Source: Kangiella sp. TOML190
Lineage (GTDB): Bacteria > Pseudomonadota > Gammaproteobacteria > Enterobacterales > Kangiellaceae
Assembly (NCBI RefSeq): GCF_023706045.1
Contig: NZ_BQYL01000001.1
Location: 620,001 to 684,000 of the forward strand
Direction of reading: 5' to 3'
DNA length: 64,000 nt
Position numbers and translations under genes: made by a program. The notes beneath the pieces were generated by a model. That model saw only the letters and a program-made list of their open reading frames with translations. It was not told where the DNA came from and ran no database searches. Shown here piece after piece: positions 17,302 through 26,869 of this stretch; position 1 is the first letter of the stretch, and the number at the start of each line of letters is the position of its first letter.

Positions 17302-19230
17302 TTACGAGCTAGACTTGTCGTCCTTTACTTCTTCGAATTCAGCATCAACCACATCATCGGCTGTATTCGAAGCTTGCTCAGAACCTGGCTGAGCGCCAGC
17401 TTCTGCTTGCTGCTGTGCTTGAGCATACATGCGCTCGGCTAACTTGGCAGATGCTTGACTTAGGGCTTCCGTCTTAGCTTTGATTTCTTCTAAGTCGTCA
17501 GTCTTGATCGCTTCTTCTAAATCATTAGCAGCAGCTTCAATCGCTTCTTTCTCACCATCTTCAAAAGTAACGTTTTCATCATTCAAAGATTTACGGCTAG
17601 CATGAACCAAACCGTCCGCCTGGTTACGAGCTTCCACCAGCTCTTGGAACTTCTTATCTTCTTCAGCATGAGCTTCGGCATCTTGTACCATTTGCTCGAT
17701 CTCTTCATCACTTAGACCAGAAGAGGCTTTGATCTGAATCGACTGCTCTTTACCAGTAGCTTTATCTTTGGCAGAAACGTGCATGATACCGTTAGCGTCA
17801 ATATCGAACGTAACTTCGATTTGTGGCATACCGCGTGGCGCAGGTGGAATATCCGCTAAGTCAAAACGACCTAGCGATTTGTTCTGCTGGGCCATTTTAC
17901 GCTCACCTTGTAATACGTGAACGGTAACCGCAGTTTGGTTATCTTCTGCTGTCGAGAATACTTGCGAAGCCTTAGTCGGAATCGTAGTGTTCTTGTCAAT
18001 AAGGTTAGTCATAACACCACCCATGGTCTCGATACCCAGAGATAGCGGAGTTACGTCTAACAACAATACGTCTTTAACGTCACCAGCCAATACCGCGCCT
18101 TGGATCGCCGCACCCATAGCTACTGCTTCATCAGGGTTAACGTCTTTGCGTGGCTCTTTGCCGAAGAAGCCAGTTACCGCTTCTTGTACTTTCGGCATAC
18201 GGGTTTGACCACCAACTAGAATCACATCGTCGATTTCAGAGGTTGATAAACCAGCGTCTTGCAGCGCTTGTTTAACTGGCGCCATTGAACGCTCGATCAG
18301 GTCTTCTACCAATGCTTCTAGTTTGGCACGTGTTAACTTGATGTTTAAGTGCTTAGGACCGGTTGCGTCAGCCGTGATGTAAGGTAAGTTCACATCCGTT
18401 TGTGAGCTAGAAGACAATTCGATCTTCGCTTTCTCGCCCGCTTCTTTCAAACGTTGCATCGCTAATGCGTCGCCTTTAAGGTCGATACCTTGTTCTTTCT
18501 TAAATTCTTCTGCTAGATACTCAATAACGCGGTTATCAAAATCTTCACCGCCCAAGAAAGTATCACCGTTAGTCGCCAATACTTCAAAAGTATGCTCACC
18601 ATCAACTTCCGCGATTTCGATAACAGAAATATCGAAAGTACCACCACCTAAGTCATAAACCGCGATAGTGCGATCGCCACGCTCTTTATCCATACCATAA
18701 GCTAAAGCCGCAGCAGTTGGCTCATTGATGATTCTTTTCACATCAAGACCAGCAATTTTACCCGCATCTTTAGTCGCTTGACGTTGTGAGTCGTTGAAGT
18801 AGGCAGGAACGGTAATTACCGCCGCAGTTACTTCTTCACCTAGGAAATCTTCAGCAGTTTTCTTCATCTTCTTTAAAACTTCTGCTGACACCTGAGGTGG
18901 CGCCATGTTTTTGCCATTTACTGAAACCCATGCATCGCCATTGTCCGCTTCAACGATCTTGTATGGGACCATTTCGATGTCTTTTTGCACCACGTCACTT
19001 TTGAACTTACGCCCGATCAAACGCTTGATCGCGTATAAGGTGTTCTCAGGATTAGTGACTGCCTGACGCTTAGCCGATTGGCCTACCAAGGTCTCGCCAT
19101 CGGTAAAAGCGATAATCGAAGGAGTCGTACGACCGCCCTCAGAGTTCTCGATAACGCGTGCTTTGTCGCCGTCTAAGACTGCAACACATGAATTGGTTGT
19201 ACCTAAATCGATACCGATAATTTTGCCCAT
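17302..19230 (-). CDS. dnaK: Chaperone DnaK (Hsp70)
   Basis: 642 aa. The N-terminal ATPase domain begins [17 protein letters not shown] and has [13 protein letters not shown] and [14 protein letters not shown]; the substrate domain follows after the conserved [14 protein letters not shown] linker. The C-terminus ends in the acidic EEVKDD-type tail. It binds unfolded polypeptides in an ATP cycle with DnaJ and GrpE. Unusually for the hrcA-grpE-dnaK-dnaJ order, grpE is 7.6 kb upstream, separated by four other genes. A sigma-32-type promoter precedes it. Confidence 0.99.
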
Positions 19231-19259
19231 TTTTCTACTCCGAAAAATACTGTTAAAAC

Positions 19260-19338
19260 TTGCTTGCAGTCTATATAAGGGCAGGGCTTAGGAGATCAAG
19301 GGGAAAAAATAAGAAAACTTAATTTTTTTGGGGTTATT
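19260..19338. repeat. Direct repeat copy A (dnaK promoter region)
   Basis: About 80 bp, similar in the same orientation to 24109-24186. Shared blocks include TTGCTTG, the gcaggg...ggagatcaa heat-shock promoter core, an identical 18-bp run aaaaaataagaaaactta and a terminal GGTTATT. The two copies bracket the 1478-aa gene and its terminator, as if dnaK's promoter region was duplicated when that gene entered. Confidence 0.8.
19272..19300 (-). promoter_or_regulatory. Sigma-32 (heat-shock) promoter of dnaK
   Basis: On the minus strand CTTGAT (19300-19295) preceded by CCC, a 13-bp spacer, then CCCTTATATA (19281-19272). This matches the RpoH pattern CTTGAA-N13/14-CCCCATnT. The start would lie about 35-40 bp before the dnaK ATG. 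Confidence 0.7.
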
Positions 19339-19355
19339 TGCCTACAGCAAAAAAA

Positions 19356-19383
19356 GCCCCTCAACCAGTCTCAGTTGAGGGGC
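19356..19383 (-). terminator. Rho-independent terminator of the giant gene
   Basis: Perfect 10-bp stem GCCCCTCAAC/GTTGAGGGGC, 8-nt loop, followed on the minus strand by seven T. It lies 24 bp after the stop of the 1478-aa gene, insulating dnaK from it. Confidence 0.92.
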
Positions 19384-19407
19384 AAGGGGTTATGAGCGAG
19401 TACGGAA

Positions 19408-22400
19408 CTAGATACTAATGGGGAAATCCGCATCAATTTGCGATTGCACGCCACTACAAGCGGTGTTAATCGCGCTAGTGCCGTGATCGGTATAACTACC
19501 TTGATCCGGGAAGTTTGGCAGATCGGTGATTTCAAGGCCCGTTCTATGGTGCACACTTCGTTGAGTACCAGGGTTCATAATGCAACCGGATGCTATAGCC
19601 GGTGAGTTATGATTGGTGAAGGTGCCATTCGGGTTCTTAATCTTACCCACTAGGCTATGGATCACCTCATGTGCCAAAGTCTCGCCAATTAAGCGTCCAA
19701 TCAGGTTAATATTTAAACTGGTTAAGCGCGCATCGGTCGATGCTAAACCACTGATCTCACTGACTAACTGACTAACCGCATCATCAATGCTGTCATTAGG
19801 GCTTGTAGTCACCAACGGATCGTCGTATTCACCGGTGAAGATCTTGATCGGCTCGTTAAAGACGCTTGGTCCAAAGGCACCGCCCACAAATAGCGTGCGC
19901 CCATAATCGGTATCGGTCGGATCTTCATCCTCCAGCTTGGCTATCGAAATATTCCCCGAAGCCACTCCCGCGCCGCTAAACTGCGCTGGCAGGGTTTCAT
20001 TAAGGCTACCCACTTGCCAAACAAGACGCACATTGGCGGTACTTAACAACTGCTCCGCGGTCGCCTTAATAACGTTAACTACGCTGTCTTTAACCGTATC
20101 CAAACCATAATTGGATAAAGCACTATCAAACTTAGCGGCATCTTCTTGCACTAACACAAACTGCGGAATAGCAACCGGAATATCCATAGTTGAACCCACT
20201 TGATTATTGGCGCTGTCGAATACTTTGAACTGAATCAAATGCTTGCCGGGCATCAATGCCGTCACCTTAGTTGCGGTAGCACTGTTATCACTAAAGCTGA
20301 CCGCGCCTGGATTCGCGCAAGACCACTGAACGCTACCTCCAGTAGGCATATTGTTTACCGTAACCTCAAGATCGAGTTCGCCCGTTTTGCTGCCAGCGAC
20401 GGCACCAAAAGTTAGCCCATCGCGCGACGCCGGAACGGTTAACACTGAGGTTACCGCATTAGGATCATCGGCGGTGGAACTGGTTGCATTACCCATCAGG
20501 GCATTGGCTGCCGTGTTCCCTTGCTGTTCGGTAAGGACGCCCGACTGAACTGCCCTTTGAATGGTTTGCAAATGGTCGCTCAATTGTGCTGGATTAGTCG
20601 AGCGCACCATTTCGCTGACCAAAGCTTGGGTTGGATCGGGCGAGGAGCCAGCAGAAGTTTTAGCGCCCGCGCCGCCTGATCCCGATGGCGAAGATTGTAT
20701 TCCCGTCGTACCTGAAGCAGCGCCACCTTTCTTACCACCGCTACTGGGGATCGGAACGCCGGTATAGGCTGAAACCAAGCCACGCACTACGTCACCGGCA
20801 ATGGCGTCCATCGCCGCGCGGTGCTGACGAGTACTGGTGAAGGCTTCTTTGGTTGCATTATTGATAAATTGCAACAATTCTGCGCCACGTGATAGATCCC
20901 TGAAAATATCCGGTGTACTCAAGGTGTTCATGGCCGCGGTCATGCCAGTAGGATCCGGCAAGCCAGGTACGTTTTGTAAGTTCACCATAGGCGCTGCCAA
21001 TGGCGTCGGAGTAGTATTGCCACGAGAAGCTCTTGAGCCAGGAGTAACGCCGGTAATATCCGGTGCGTTTCTGCCACAAGCTTGCTCTGGATCGATAAAG
21101 CGTTCCACATCGCGCTTTTCTGTAGCGTTGCAGCAAGACAGATACACTTCGCCAAAAATACCGCGAGTAGGCATGGTCACAATGCGACTGGAAACCACAA
21201 AATCCGGCGGATCCAGTTGCACATAGCGATGCCCTTCTAGCAAGGCAAAAGCAACGTAATTACCTAAAACGCCTAATGGACGATTAACGATTTTATCCAA
21301 TAAAGAATCACCATTCATTTCATACTGATCGAAACGAATCGCTCGTCGATCCGGATCTTCGCGCAACCACAAGGCCCGCATATAGCGCATCGGATGTGAC
21401 TGGATATGAGCGATCAACTCTTGCAGGCGACAATAGTCTTGGTGCTCTCGGCCACGGTAATCTTCGAAGTTCGGCTCCACATCGGCCACCGACACCATCA
21501 CCACCGGATTATCTTTGGATAAAGTGGCATTGACCCCGCCAACCGTTAAACGGAAGGATTGTGGGCTAGGCATAAATCTGGAAACGTCAGTACGAGCGGT
21601 AATTTCGATACGCTCTAACTTATGAGTTTGCGTATTGCCCAATAAGTCATCAATAAACTGCTCGCCAACGATATTGCCGAAAATGCCTAAATTGATGTTA
21701 TTAATCGCCTCATCAGCATCAAAGGACACTCTTAGCTGATCCAGATCGGTGGTTTTTACTGGCAGCGAGCGATAATCCACTGGGCCTTTCTGCCCGCTGA
21801 CACCGCGCGGTTCTAATGGAATACTTTGCCCCGAAGCCGTTTCGATACTCAAGGAAATACCTTTGCGCCATGAACGATCCAAATCAATTTTCCAGCGCGA
21901 AAAGGTCGCATAAGGCTTTTCGATATCGTACACATCGCCACAATGTAACAAGCGGCCTAGTGAATTAAACGCTCGACGGTATTTTCGCGGCACTAGTCGT
22001 CTTAAGATCCGTGAATTACGGTCTAAAAAGCGGGTGATCGGTCGCGATGGGGCTTTGACAAACTTATCGAAGCTAGGAATTTTATCGAAAATATCATCAT
22101 CAATATCATAAGGAACCAACACCACGGGCTTTTCTTCCACCAATTCGGTTTTTACCGCATAGTGCGAAACCACCGCCGAATACATCAGGTTCATGACGTG
22201 ATTTTTATTATGGTTATGGATATTGCGGGTATTGATCCGCTCCGACTCTCTTTGCGTCGAAGTAGTGACCACGGTACTGCGTTGTGAACGATAAGCAGAG
22301 GCTTTCTGCGTTACCGTATCAGAGATATCTTGAACTGTAGAACTATGAACATCGCGCCGACCTGAGGTACTACTGCTAGTGCCGCCGCCACCGCCGCCAA

Positions 22401-23844
22401 TACTAAAAAACCCCAAATCTAAACTGGCACCGCCACCGCCAGAAGCAGAAGATCCAGACTGTTTTTCTTTTAGAACCGCATCCACCACTTCGTCAATCGA
22501 ACGATCGTGATTCATTTGATGCGCCATTTTTTCGCGTGACGTAGTTTGCTCGACCCGAGTATCGCGTTCGCTGCGACGCCAATCAATCACGGTAATATTA
22601 ATGTCTTCGCACGGCGCTAACGACGTCGAATACAATAACTTACCTAACCCTTGACCTACCGGATACCAACCTTGCTTATAAAGGTTGGCCAAACCTAATA
22701 CCAAGTTGCCACCAGTAACTGAATAGGTACTTTCTTTTTCATCCCCAAAAGGAATTGGCCCAGTGACTTTATTTCTATCCACCGAACGCTTGTTATCAAA
22801 CACTAAATCCGCGTCTGTAATGCGCACGATTTGTCGGAAATGATACTCTCTTGAGGCAAATTCAGTTCGAGGCCGCAAGCAACAATTACCATCCACGTGC
22901 TCCTCATTTAAACCAAAAGAATCCGGCGATACCGAAATGTCTATGTCATCGGGATCTTCGATCGTTCCAGGCCTTCCTTCGTTATCATTACCAGTAAAAA
23001 TTTCTGGAATATCCAATTGTTTAGGGATCACAAAAATATGAGCTGAACCCAGCTCATTTTGTAAACGGATTTCCGGAATCAATAAACGATGGCTAGAGGT
23101 TACGCCACCCGCTGAAGAACCAATTTCGACTTGTAATTCCTCAAACGAATCGCGTGGAATTCGACTCATATTTACCGAAGCATAGCCTTGACCATCGGTT
23201 AGTCCTTGCTTGAGTAAAACCATCTCGCCTGATTGCGGATCCTTACCAGAAATACTAAAAGTCGCATTCTTGGCTAATTTGCTTTCTTCATTAGTAACTT
23301 TCAGGCGAATTTTGCCAATATTTTCTACTGGCTTTAGAACATCTCCCTCAAGTACGCTGACATTTCGAGGACCTAATCCATTAAAATTACTCGAACCTAA
23401 ATATTGAGCTGGCTGGATTTGAAGCTGGTCGTTAAAATCAAAACGTTTTTCACCCACCAGATCCGCAGCTTCTAGGCGAATAACGTCTTCTTGCTCATCA
23501 ATGCCAAAAAACTGAGCTGCCTGCGGAATATCTTTAGCCAACGCTAAAATCTGCTCCATTTCTTTAGCTAACAATTCGCTCTTTCGCCGCACATTATCGG
23601 CCAACTTATCGTCACCATTTAGGTACAGCTTTTCCGCTTCCTTATCCAGCTTCTGCATTTGCGCTTGAATACGGTGAACCTTGTGCTTGAAGCCATCCAA
23701 GACTTCCCTTGACTTTATCGCTTCAGCACGAATTCTTTCACCCTGACTTGGGTTTGATAGTCGTGAACTGGATTCTGCTACCTGAGAGCTTTTTTTAGGC
23801 GCAGAACCGCCACTGGCCTTTTCCTGAGAAGGTTTTTTAGCCAT
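19408..23844 (-). CDS. Giant protein of unknown function with C-terminal HExxH motif
   Basis: 1478 aa, preceded by a strong AAGGAG 7 nt before the ATG. No signal peptide. The first 35 residues are Lys/Ser-rich; about 36-110 is charged and likely coiled coil (KHKVHRIQAQMQKLDKEAEKL). A central block (about 340-560) contains LYSTSLAPCEDINITVIDWRRSERDTR, a Gly/Ser-rich insert and STVVTTSTQRESERINTRNIHNHNKNH; I recall this pattern from large bacterial proteins of unknown function but cannot name a family. A low-complexity linker (about 1045-1085) precedes an Ig/PKD-like domain (QWSCANPGAVSFSDNSATAT). The C-terminus has HEVIH at 1392-1396, a later His (about 1412) and a possible Met-turn CIMNPG around 1421-1425, suggesting a zinc metalloprotease; glycine spacing differs from classical metzincins. 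It is flanked by duplicated dnaK promoter sequence, implying insertion. Confidence 0.85.
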   Translation of the reverse strand: MAKKPSQEKASGGSAPKKSSQVAESSSRLSNPSQGERIRAEAIKSREVLDGFKHKVHRIQAQMQKLDKEAEKLYLNGDDKLADNVRRKSELLAKEMEQILALAKDIPQAAQFFGIDEQEDVIRLEAADLVGEKRFDFNDQLQIQPAQYLGSSNFNGLGPRNVSVLEGDVLKPVENIGKIRLKVTNEESKLAKNATFSISGKDPQSGEMVLLKQGLTDGQGYASVNMSRIPRDSFEELQVEIGSSAGGVTSSHRLLIPEIRLQNELGSAHIFVIPKQLDIPEIFTGNDNEGRPGTIEDPDDIDISVSPDSFGLNEEHVDGNCCLRPRTEFASREYHFRQIVRITDADLVFDNKRSVDRNKVTGPIPFGDEKESTYSVTGGNLVLGLANLYKQGWYPVGQGLGKLLYSTSLAPCEDINITVIDWRRSERDTRVEQTTSREKMAHQMNHDRSIDEVVDAVLKEKQSGSSASGGGGASLDLGFFSIGGGGGGTSSSTSGRRDVHSSTVQDISDTVTQKASAYRSQRSTVVTTSTQRESERINTRNIHNHNKNHVMNLMYSAVVSHYAVKTELVEEKPVVLVPYDIDDDIFDKIPSFDKFVKAPSRPITRFLDRNSRILRRLVPRKYRRAFNSLGRLLHCGDVYDIEKPYATFSRWKIDLDRSWRKGISLSIETASGQSIPLEPRGVSGQKGPVDYRSLPVKTTDLDQLRVSFDADEAINNINLGIFGNIVGEQFIDDLLGNTQTHKLERIEITARTDVSRFMPSPQSFRLTVGGVNATLSKDNPVVMVSVADVEPNFEDYRGREHQDYCRLQELIAHIQSHPMRYMRALWLREDPDRRAIRFDQYEMNGDSLLDKIVNRPLGVLGNYVAFALLEGHRYVQLDPPDFVVSSRIVTMPTRGIFGEVYLSCCNATEKRDVERFIDPEQACGRNAPDITGVTPGSRASRGNTTPTPLAAPMVNLQNVPGLPDPTGMTAAMNTLSTPDIFRDLSRGAELLQFINNATKEAFTSTRQHRAAMDAIAGDVVRGLVSAYTGVPIPSSGGKKGGAASGTTGIQSSPSGSGGAGAKTSAGSSPDPTQALVSEMVRSTNPAQLSDHLQTIQRAVQSGVLTEQQGNTAANALMGNATSSTADDPNAVTSVLTVPASRDGLTFGAVAGSKTGELDLEVTVNNMPTGGSVQWSCANPGAVSFSDNSATATKVTALMPGKHLIQFKVFDSANNQVGSTMDIPVAIPQFVLVQEDAAKFDSALSNYGLDTVKDSVVNVIKATAEQLLSTANVRLVWQVGSLNETLPAQFSGAGVASGNISIAKLEDEDPTDTDYGRTLFVGGAFGPSVFNEPIKIFTGEYDDPLVTTSPNDSIDDAVSQLVSEISGLASTDARLTSLNINLIGRLIGETLAHEVIHSLVGKIKNPNGTFTNHNSPAIASGCIMNPGTQRSVHHRTGLEITDLPNFPDQGSYTDHGTSAINTACSGVQSQIDADFPISI

Positions 23845-24018
23845 GATATTCTCCTTACAATATGATCTTTGCGGCCAAACTTCATGTTCAGCAGGCTCTA
23901 TTTTATCGAAGAAAATTGTGAAAAATAGATGTCGATAAAGTTAACAATGCAGCTATGCTTTGCTTTATAAGCACAGCGAGCAATTAATGCAGACTTGCAT
24001 TAAAATTCTGCAAGTGGA

Positions 24019-24045
24019 TTCACAAAATATTTAATCTTTTGTGAA
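24019..24045. promoter_or_regulatory. Inverted repeat upstream of the giant gene
   Basis: TTCACAAAA (24019-24027) and TTTTGTGAA (24037-24045) form a perfect 9-bp inverted repeat with a 9-nt spacer. It is 175 bp before the start of the 1478-aa gene. It could be an operator or an RNA hairpin in its leader. No other gene is visible between 23845 and 24526; the rest of that gap is promoter duplicate and repeat elements listed separately. Confidence 0.4.
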
Positions 24046-24108
24046 CTAGCGACAATTTTTGCTTTAACTTTTTTGTCGGTATTTTTTACTGAACATCAAA
24101 ATTTGAAA

Positions 24109-24186
24109 TTGCTTGATACCTCTATAAAAGCAGGGTTTTGGAGATCAAGGGAAAAAATAAGAAAACTTACCTTTTTTAAGGTTATT
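24109..24186. repeat. Direct repeat copy B (degenerate dnaK promoter)
   Basis: Second copy of the 19260-19338 segment, same orientation. The -35-like ATCAAG (24144-24149 plus strand) is kept, but the -10-like part has lost its CCC (minus strand GCTTTTATAG instead of CCCTTATATA). It lies 265 bp before the 1478-aa gene and could still give weak heat-shock transcription toward it, or be a decayed relic. Confidence 0.8.
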
Positions 24187-24229
24187 GGCTGATCCGTCAT
24201 TCCATTAAGCATGTCATGCCCTTTAAAAC

Positions 24230-24253
24230 GTCATTCCCACGAAAGCGGGAATC
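24230..24253. repeat. Short palindromic repeat (GTCATTCCC...GGGAATC type)
   Basis: ATTCCC (24233-24238) pairs with GGGAAT (24247-24252) around ACGAAAGC. The word GTCATTCCCRCGAA is a common dispersed intergenic element in gammaproteobacteria and recurs here at 32045-32094. Confidence 0.55.
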
Positions 24254-24328
24254 TTGGTGGGATTTTCCTGAAATGCCTGAGTTAATCGGCACTTTGTACT
24301 ATTTAATAGCTTATTTACCGTTTTACTT

Positions 24329-24488
24329 GTTCATTTTCTTTACTTGTCTAAAGAAAACGAACCAAAAGAAATGACACCCCAGTCGCTAGGTGCTGCGCAC
24401 TCCCCTCGTTCATCAAAGTTACTTACGCGCCGCAAAACGAAACATCCCTGTTTCGTCTTTGCTAAATTGGGCTGTCCCTGCCCAATTT
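24329..24488. repeat. Multi-hairpin dispersed repeat element
   Basis: Three hairpins in series: a 14-bp stem with one mismatch (24329-24342 with 24349-24362, loop CTTGTC); ACGAAACA-TCCC-TGTTTCGT (24437-24456); and AAATTGGGC/GCCCAATTT (24464-24472 with 24480-24488). The opening with CTTGTCTAAAGAAAACGAACC and the following ACACCCC resemble a widespread gammaproteobacterial intergenic repeat as I remember it. The plus-strand reading frame across it (24344-24610) is a by-product and not a gene. Confidence 0.5.
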
Positions 24489-24526
24489 ACACTATAACTT
24501 TGCTTCCCTCGGCTAGCTCAAGGGGA

Positions 24527-25371: not shown

Positions 25372-26088
25372 TTACAACTCTGCATTATGATATACATTCT
25401 GCACATCATCTTGATCTTCTAGCATTTCCATAAATTTTTCGAACATTTCCATATCCTCGGCTGGTACTTGTGCCATGACTTTTGGGATAAATTGAATCTC
25501 GTCCACTTCAAACTCAATCTCGCCGAAGTTTTCGGTTAGCGCTTGTTTGGCTTTGGCGTATTCGGTGTTTGGTGCGAATACTGTGATCATGCCCTCTTCA
25601 TGTTCAATATCCGAAACATCCACATCCGCCATCATTAAAGCTTCCAGTACCGCTTCTTCGTCATCATGCGGGAATACGAAAATAGCGCTATGGTCGAACA
25701 TATGGCTGACGCTACCTTCGGTGCCAATTTTGCATTTGGTTTTAGTGAAACAAAGACGAACCTCGCCGAAAGTACGGTTAGGGTTATCAGTTAGGCAATC
25801 CACAATCACCATGGTATTACCTGGGCCATAACCTTCATAACGCGCTACCGCAAAGTCTTCACCAGCGCCCGAGGTCGCTTTATCAATGGCGTTTTTAATC
25901 ACGTGCGCGGGCACTTGGGCGCGTTTAGCACTATCAATTAAGCTACGAAGCGCTAAGTTCCCTTCTGGATCGGCGCCGCCTTGTTTTGCCACCACATAAA
26001 TCTGGCGACTGAACTTGCTGTAAATTCTTGAATTTTGATTCGAGGTTTTGGCCATCGAATCTTTACGGTTTTGATATGCGCGACCCAT
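25372..26088 (-). CDS. YebC/PmpR (TACO1) family protein, YeeN-type
   Basis: 238 aa, the length of E. coli YeeN, and with the same start ([20 protein letters not shown], then [21 protein letters not shown]). The family signatures [37 protein letters not shown] and the acidic C-terminus are intact. Family members are DNA-binding regulators or, by recent work on YebC, ribosome-associated translation factors; which applies to the YeeN branch is unclear. It lies in the expanded gap between grpE and dnaK. Confidence 0.93.
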
Positions 26089-26247: not shown

Positions 26248-26550
26248 TTAACTACCAATCGATGCATCTTCTGCTTTGCAGGTTTTTAGGGTTTCTTCCA
26301 TATGTTGTTTAGCTACCGAGTCATCGCCACTCTTCTTAGCTTCCAAAATCAACTCATAGTTAGTATTTTCCGCGACGCACTGACACACAGCTAGTGCCTC
26401 TGCTTTTTCTCCTTCAGGTAAAACCGAAGCTTTACTTTCGCACATAGCCAAGCTTTTTTCTTTCAATACTTCTGCTGTGAGTGCTTCGTCTGCCGCTGCG
26501 CTTGCCGTAAAAAATAAAGATGCCAATGTTAAGATTATTAATTGTTTCAT
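26248..26550 (-). CDS. Small exported Cys-containing protein
   Basis: 100 aa from the ATG at 26550, chosen because GAGGAG lies 9 nt upstream and the signal peptide starts there (MKQLIILTLASLFFTASAAA). An in-frame ATG at 26613 adds 21 residues without a plausible site. The mature chain of about 80 aa is acidic and has four Cys (AMCESK, VCQCVAEN, KTCKAED), which fits a small helical periplasmic protein with two disulfides. No family recognised. Confidence 0.7.
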   Translation of the reverse strand: MKQLIILTLASLFFTASAAADEALTAEVLKEKSLAMCESKASVLPEGEKAEALAVCQCVAENTNYELILEAKKSGDDSVAKQHMEETLKTCKAEDASIGS

Positions 26551-26869
26551 ACCTGTACTCCTCGTGTTTAGGAAGGCTTTTTGTAGCGCACTCACCACCA
26601 CAAAAATGTGCACAAGTTGGCAGAGTTAAGTTCAAAAGGCAGGATTTGTTGCGACTGTGAACGACTCACGATCTTAATCAACAACTGGTGTGCTTTTTGC
26701 TCGTTAAAAGGTTCGAGGTACGAATGAGGCGCGGTAGAGATTTACAGTTTTGGGGATAAGTTCCGCCAATTTTCAAGCAGTGTGATGCCAGTCAAAACTT
26801 GCTAATTTACAATTAAAAAACCGCGAACTTGTCGCGGTTTAATAAAAAAATGCTTTTACTGACAAGGCA
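26551..26869. other. Intergenic region upstream of the small exported protein
   Basis: 319 bp without a supported gene. It holds the ribosome-binding site of the exported protein at the left and the grpE terminator at the right (26818-26840). I see no clear promoter match, tRNA or repeat in the rest. Confidence 0.5.
26818..26840 (-). terminator. Rho-independent terminator after grpE
   Basis: AAACCGCGA/TCGCGGTTT stem with an ACTTG loop, followed on the minus strand by TTTTTTAATT. It ends the hrcA-grpE unit, so dnaK is not reached from it. Confidence 0.9.

Follow-up and report, generated by a model that had tools for sequence, protein, structure and literature searches.

The promoter region of dnaK is present twice, in direct orientation, in the 64-kb stretch of Kangiella sp. 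TOML190 DNA that was analysed here as a whole (the window): once before dnaK itself (the inner copy) and once before a neighbouring gene encoding a 1478-aa protein (the outer copy). On balance, we favor the explanation that the 1478-aa gene has long been at this locus, that a copy of the dnaK promoter was placed ahead of it later and in this lineage only, and that this copy has by now decayed. The evidence comes from comparison of the two copies with each other, with the same locus in other Kangiella genomes, and with known sigma-32 promoters.

Two copies of the dnaK promoter around the 1478-aa gene

The first-pass annotation of this DNA had noticed two stretches of nearly 80 bp that were alike in the same direction, and had read them as a dnaK promoter duplicated around the 1478-aa gene. 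Alignment by MAFFT and BLAST confirmed both points; the two stretches (Table 1) are direct copies with ~81% identity over 84-85 bp and one indel, and their edges fall within a few bases of those first given. When the outer copy was used as a query against its own 2.45-Mb genome, the inner copy was matched at E = 5.2e-16, far above chance, and the next match had an E value of 0.82. No third copy was found in the genome, each copy as a query matching only its counterpart above noise. Local alignment of the two copies gave a score of 56, compared with a mean of 12 and a maximum of 25 in 300 shuffles. Their longest common stretch is 31 bp, broken by one 1-base indel, and the mismatches cluster outside this block (p = 0.004). 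Moreover, the outer copy is 70% identical, across 108 bp, to the dnaK promoter of another Kangiella genome (G011).

Table 1. Features of the yebC-dnaK region, in window positions
Feature	Position	Strand	Remarks
dnaK (642 aa)	17302..19230	-	
Inner copy, working dnaK promoter	19257..19341	-	orthologous module before dnaK in every Kangiella aligned
Inner copy, -10 CCTTATAT	19280-19273	-	
Inner copy, -35 CCCTTGA	19302-19296	-	
Inner copy, upstream box AATAACCCCAAAAAAATTAAG		-	
Intrinsic terminator of 1478-aa gene	19356..19383	-	between gene and inner dnaK promoter; 12-pair stem, then TTTTTTT
1478-aa gene, function unknown	19408..23844	-	ortholog in Kangiella sp. HZ709, same place
Conserved palindrome AATGCA-N4-TGCATT, putative operator	23986..24001	-	nearly same distance in Kangiella sp. 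HZ709
Outer copy, degenerate dnaK promoter duplicate	24106..24189	-	groups with same-genome inner copy, bootstrap 86
Outer copy, degenerate -10 position TTTTATAG	24129-24122	-	
Outer copy, -35 CCCTTGA (kept)	24151-24145	-	
REP-type dispersed repeat beside outer copy	24225..24254	.	14 more short genome matches, many inverted pairs
177-bp repeat	24339..24515	.	84% copy elsewhere in genome
yebC-type gene, other boundary of variable gap	25372..26088	-	

Between the copies lie the 1478-aa gene, its strong terminator, and ~262 bp of leader DNA running from the outer copy to the start codon; the earlier description, in which only the gene and its terminator separated the copies, was thus right about these two and overlooked the leader. 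The gap that holds them is that between yebC and dnaK, and not, as first stated, that between grpE and dnaK; grpE is more distant. No transposase or integrase was found in the inserted segment, as neither the 1478-aa protein nor a 224-aa protein matched one in Pfam, NCBIfam, or PHROG, and the DNA between the copies, with only the 1478-aa gene and its leader, does not qualify as a transposon or integrative element. The left flank has been rearranged, as the REP-type and 177-bp repeats adjoining the outer copy make plain; these repeats do not reveal the route.

A variable gap between yebC and dnaK in Kangiella

The yebC-dnaK gap was compared in 20 genomes of the genus Kangiella. The gene order hrcA-grpE-yebC-dnaK is kept in nearly all of them, and the gap measures 172-6144 bp and differs in cargo. 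In G011 it contains only a repeat and a terminator, and in G019 just a terminator; G016 and G017 have small genes of membrane or lipoprotein-like type, and G006, G010, and G012 have larger genes. Two small secreted cysteine proteins are encoded there as a pair in G001, G003, G005, G007, G009, G012, G014, and G015, and also in G018, where yebC is missing. In G004 (L047, L112), a rearrangement has its breakpoint in the gap, so that 40 kb separate yebC from dnaK and the two are on opposite strands; the dnaK promoter module is intact there. All species aligned have an intact module that runs from AATAACC up to the start codon of dnaK. The 1478-aa gene is therefore one of several gap cargoes, and most relatives have the site without it, in line with the first-pass annotation.

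Three further observations were made at this locus. Positions 26248-26613 of the window encode a 121-aa small secreted cysteine-containing protein, the relatives of which form the tandem pair in the gap of many other Kangiella. The -35 element of dnaK is preceded by a conserved box, TAACCCCAAAAAAAnTAAGTT (inner copy and the dnaK promoters of L046-L060), that lies ~10 bp closer to it in half of the genus than in the rest; this shift by one helical turn suggests, from its spacing, a phased upstream element or a bound activator. Finally, recN of G010 (L055) changes reading frame at residue 465, owing to a frameshift or a sequencing error.

Among the 20 genomes, the 1478-aa gene is present only in this one and in Kangiella sp. 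HZ709 (G013), a member of the same clade, where the ortholog lies between yebC and dnaK in the same orientation and the proteins are 73% identical. At four-fold silent sites, identity between the two genomes is 29% in the 1478-aa gene and 31-38% in grpE, hrcA, nadK, and recN; the GC3 of the gene is 0.45, and that of its neighbours 0.41-0.52. A protein identity of 73% together with saturated silent sites indicates that the gene was not exchanged recently between the two species. In the species tree, HZ709 pairs with G011, which lacks the gene, so that the gene must either have descended vertically and been lost several times or have been gained repeatedly at the same place. Unrelated flanks around the gene in a relative had been named in advance as evidence against an insertion; HZ709 shows this in part, as its left flank differs and its right flank is the same.

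The gene also appears to have regulatory DNA of its own. A palindrome, AATGCA-N4-TGCATT, lies between the outer copy and the gene; it precedes the start codon by 157 bp in this genome and by 158 bp in HZ709, in a region that is otherwise ~62% alike between the two; it was not found in two Alcanivorax relatives. Its conserved position suggests that the 1478-aa gene has control of its own, and makes the palindrome a better candidate than the outer copy for such control.

The 1478-aa protein

The protein has a conserved core at ~aa 317-1000 and an Ig/PKD-like stretch at ~aa 1156-1234, and alignment of its C-terminus revealed HExxH, then a conserved downstream histidine and IM(N), a pattern that looks like that of zinc metalloproteases. 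No Pfam, NCBIfam, PHROG, or PADLOC family scored above cut-off, and a sequence search of the PDB returned no relatives. Structure predictions, made with four sequences each, gave a mean pLDDT of 38 for the core and 46 for the C-terminal third, and were confident only at the Ig/PKD-like stretch. The core recurs in Polaromonas plasmid pH8NP2, where defence-type genes lie nearby, and in Streptomyces, Nostoc, and Haladaptatus; of 368 other gammaproteobacterial genomes that were sampled, 9 have it. The C-termini of the family differ, with HExxH here and a Haladaptatus relative annotated as DUF2272. Homologs in Alcanivorax sp. S6407 and DSM 26293 are full-length, are 54% identical, and have the same C-terminal HExxH motif; unlike the gene in Kangiella, they are not beside dnaK, but are flanked by genes that, from reading of the translations, are of monooxygenase type, of a second oxidoreductase type, and for electron-transfer flavoprotein. 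The family is undescribed, uncharacterised, and patchy in distribution. As a guess from the motif, the 1478-aa protein might be a cytoplasmic or otherwise exported zinc-dependent protease.

Origin of the outer copy

The first proposal was that insertion of the gene had created the duplication. Profile search and shuffled local alignment found nothing above noise in HZ709 that would be a second dnaK promoter copy; a single dnaK promoter was detected, and a hydrolase gene fills the left part of the gap. When the regions upstream of the 1478-aa gene in the two genomes were aligned, they matched over ~180 bp only, ending short of the position of the outer copy. Moreover, in a tree of the promoter module (~85 sites, just 3 of them exclusive to the two copies), the outer copy paired with the inner copy of its own genome at a bootstrap of 86. 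The two copies also share a T-rich spacer, TTTTCTTATTTTTTCCC, that differs in all other species aligned. Because silent sites are saturated between the species, a spacer that is under little constraint and yet shows no difference between the copies should have arisen well after the species split, and an outer copy younger than the split implies that the gene came first and the promoter copy later. The 1478-aa gene was thus probably in place before the outer copy arose, and creation of the duplication by insertion is not supported, given that in HZ709 the gene occupies the same position and no outer copy could be detected, and that the outer copy groups with its own-genome counterpart. At the other junction, from the stop codon of the 1478-aa gene to the promoter, the alignment between the two species did not exceed chance, its score being reached by 99 of 500 shuffles; CAAATAACC, next to the promoter and shared by both species, is suggestive only.

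We infer the following order of events. The 1478-aa gene would already have been in the yebC-dnaK gap of the common ancestor with HZ709. Later, and in this lineage only, a segment of ~85 bp with the complete dnaK promoter (upstream box, -35, and -10) would have been copied, landing in direct orientation ~262 bp before the 1478-aa gene and ahead of its own regulatory region. The simplest route would be a tandem duplication through which the dnaK promoter came to stand ahead of the gene, with the surplus gene copy then being deleted; if gene and dnaK promoter were duplicated together and the first gene copy was deleted, exactly the present order would result. A local template switch would be an alternative route. 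The outer copy may in the past have given the 1478-aa gene additional transcription under heat shock; it would since have lost its sigma-32 -10 element, and is probably a decaying remnant. Several points weigh against this order of events. An ancestral outer copy might have been lost from HZ709 and kept similar to the inner copy in this genome by gene conversion, and the promoter-module tree is small, with the bootstrap and the 3 exclusive sites given above. Because the gene is missing from G011, the nearest relative of HZ709, several losses must be assumed under vertical descent. Finally, random duplication plus deletion would not be expected to place the left edge of the outer copy almost exactly where the conserved promoter module starts, as is observed.

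Considerably less probable is that the gene arrived by recombination that used dnaK promoter homology and left the arrangement promoter-gene-promoter, for example through integration of a circular DNA bearing both the gene and a copy of the promoter. HZ709 would then have lost its outer copy later, and in the empty relatives recombination between the two promoters would have removed the gene. The layout is exactly as single-crossover integration would give, the empty sites of other species are clean with the promoter module intact, and the gene is patchy in the genus, G011 being without it beside HZ709. However, HZ709 shows no trace of an outer copy, gene conversion would be required to make the outer copy nearest to its own inner copy, the composition of the gene is not foreign, and the two Alcanivorax relatives carry the gene with no recognisable dnaK promoter before it.

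Sigma-32 signals in the two copies

The gammaproteobacterial consensus for sigma-32 (RpoH) promoters is quoted in PMC4263515 as CTTGAA-N13-17-CCCCATNT, and that of Shewanella is similar (PMC3168786); the genome studied here encodes RpoH. Our search for literature on the Kangiella heat-shock response found nothing useful. The inner copy reads CCCTTGA-N15-CCTTATAT before dnaK, matching 7/7 at -35 and 5/7 at -10 with a spacing of 15, and it is the top sigma-32-like site of the window (12/14; 128,000 positions scored). It is like known sigma-32 promoters, having the -35 CTTGA, a -10 of the CCCCATNT type, a spacing within 13-17, and a heat-shock gene downstream. The outer copy, when compared with known sigma-32 promoters, retains the -35 (CCCTTGA, 7/7) and not the -10. 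Its TTTTATAG matches 2/7 of the sigma-32 consensus at a spacing of 15 and 3/7 at a spacing of 13, the best found; all four consensus C positions are gone, and the element does not fit CCCCATNT. The partial loss of the outer -10 that had been noticed at first reading therefore stands, at 2-3/7 compared with 5/7 in the inner copy. In the same genome, groES and hslV have sigma-32 sites with the full CCCCATNT (-10 7/7). The CIRCE element (TTAGCACTC-N9-GAGTGCTAA) is absent from the whole window, and thus from the vicinity of dnaK; the sigma-32 promoter of groES (L142) overlaps a perfect CIRCE element, and dnaK is without one.

No sigma-70 site was present in the outer copy by promoter-scan criteria. 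As no terminator was found between the outer copy and the 1478-aa gene, weak read-through transcription from the outer copy may be possible. Heat-shock control of the gene today is nevertheless unlikely, judging from an outer -10 that matches at only 2-3/7, and the suggestion that the outer copy brought the gene under such control has lost ground accordingly; heat-inducibility of the 1478-aa gene should not be assumed for this genome. For the same reason we doubt that the outer copy functions as an additional heat-shock promoter for the gene, its weak -10 being tolerated. That it might be is suggested by the perfect -35 in the same orientation with no terminator before the gene, by retention of the upstream box and the 31-bp core with clustered identity, and by the presence of RpoH; against it are the poor -10, with the loss of all four C positions, and the make-up of the 31-bp block. 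Most of this block is spacer sequence that differs from species to species, and its identity consequently points to youth and not to constraint.

We give very little credence to the idea that the promoter copies form a reversible recombination cassette, in which a crossover would excise the gene as a circle with one promoter and circles would re-enter the same place in other strains; if true, it would account for the patchy presence of the gene at one place and for the clean empty sites. Chance likeness is refuted as the source of the similarity, for although both stretches are AT-rich intergenic DNA, the genome-wide E value (5e-16), the alignment score far beyond 300 shuffles, and the 70% identity of the outer copy to the G011 promoter over 108 bp all speak against it.

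Comparison with promoter capture

A late copy of the dnaK promoter, as favored here, would make this locus a dated natural case in which a heat-shock promoter was copied before a neighbouring gene and then decayed, with an unduplicated relative available for comparison. The genus comparison also indicates that the yebC-dnaK gap of Kangiella accepts varied cargo with the dnaK promoter unharmed.

Bacterial cases of promoter capture by way of tandem duplication are on record, the Salmonella histidine genes and the citrate transporter of the E. coli long-term experiment being among the examples given in PMC11111574 and the works cited there. As in known capture, a neighbour's promoter has been duplicated before another gene in direct orientation with the donor copy kept, and the copy is absent from HZ709, a relative with the same gene order. 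Unlike in known capture, the recipient gene has a conserved upstream region of its own and only a single gene copy remains; moreover, the junction here is old and the captured sigma-32 -10 has decayed. Taking likenesses and differences together, our best reading is that the outer copy represents an ordinary, small, and decayed instance of the known process of promoter capture.
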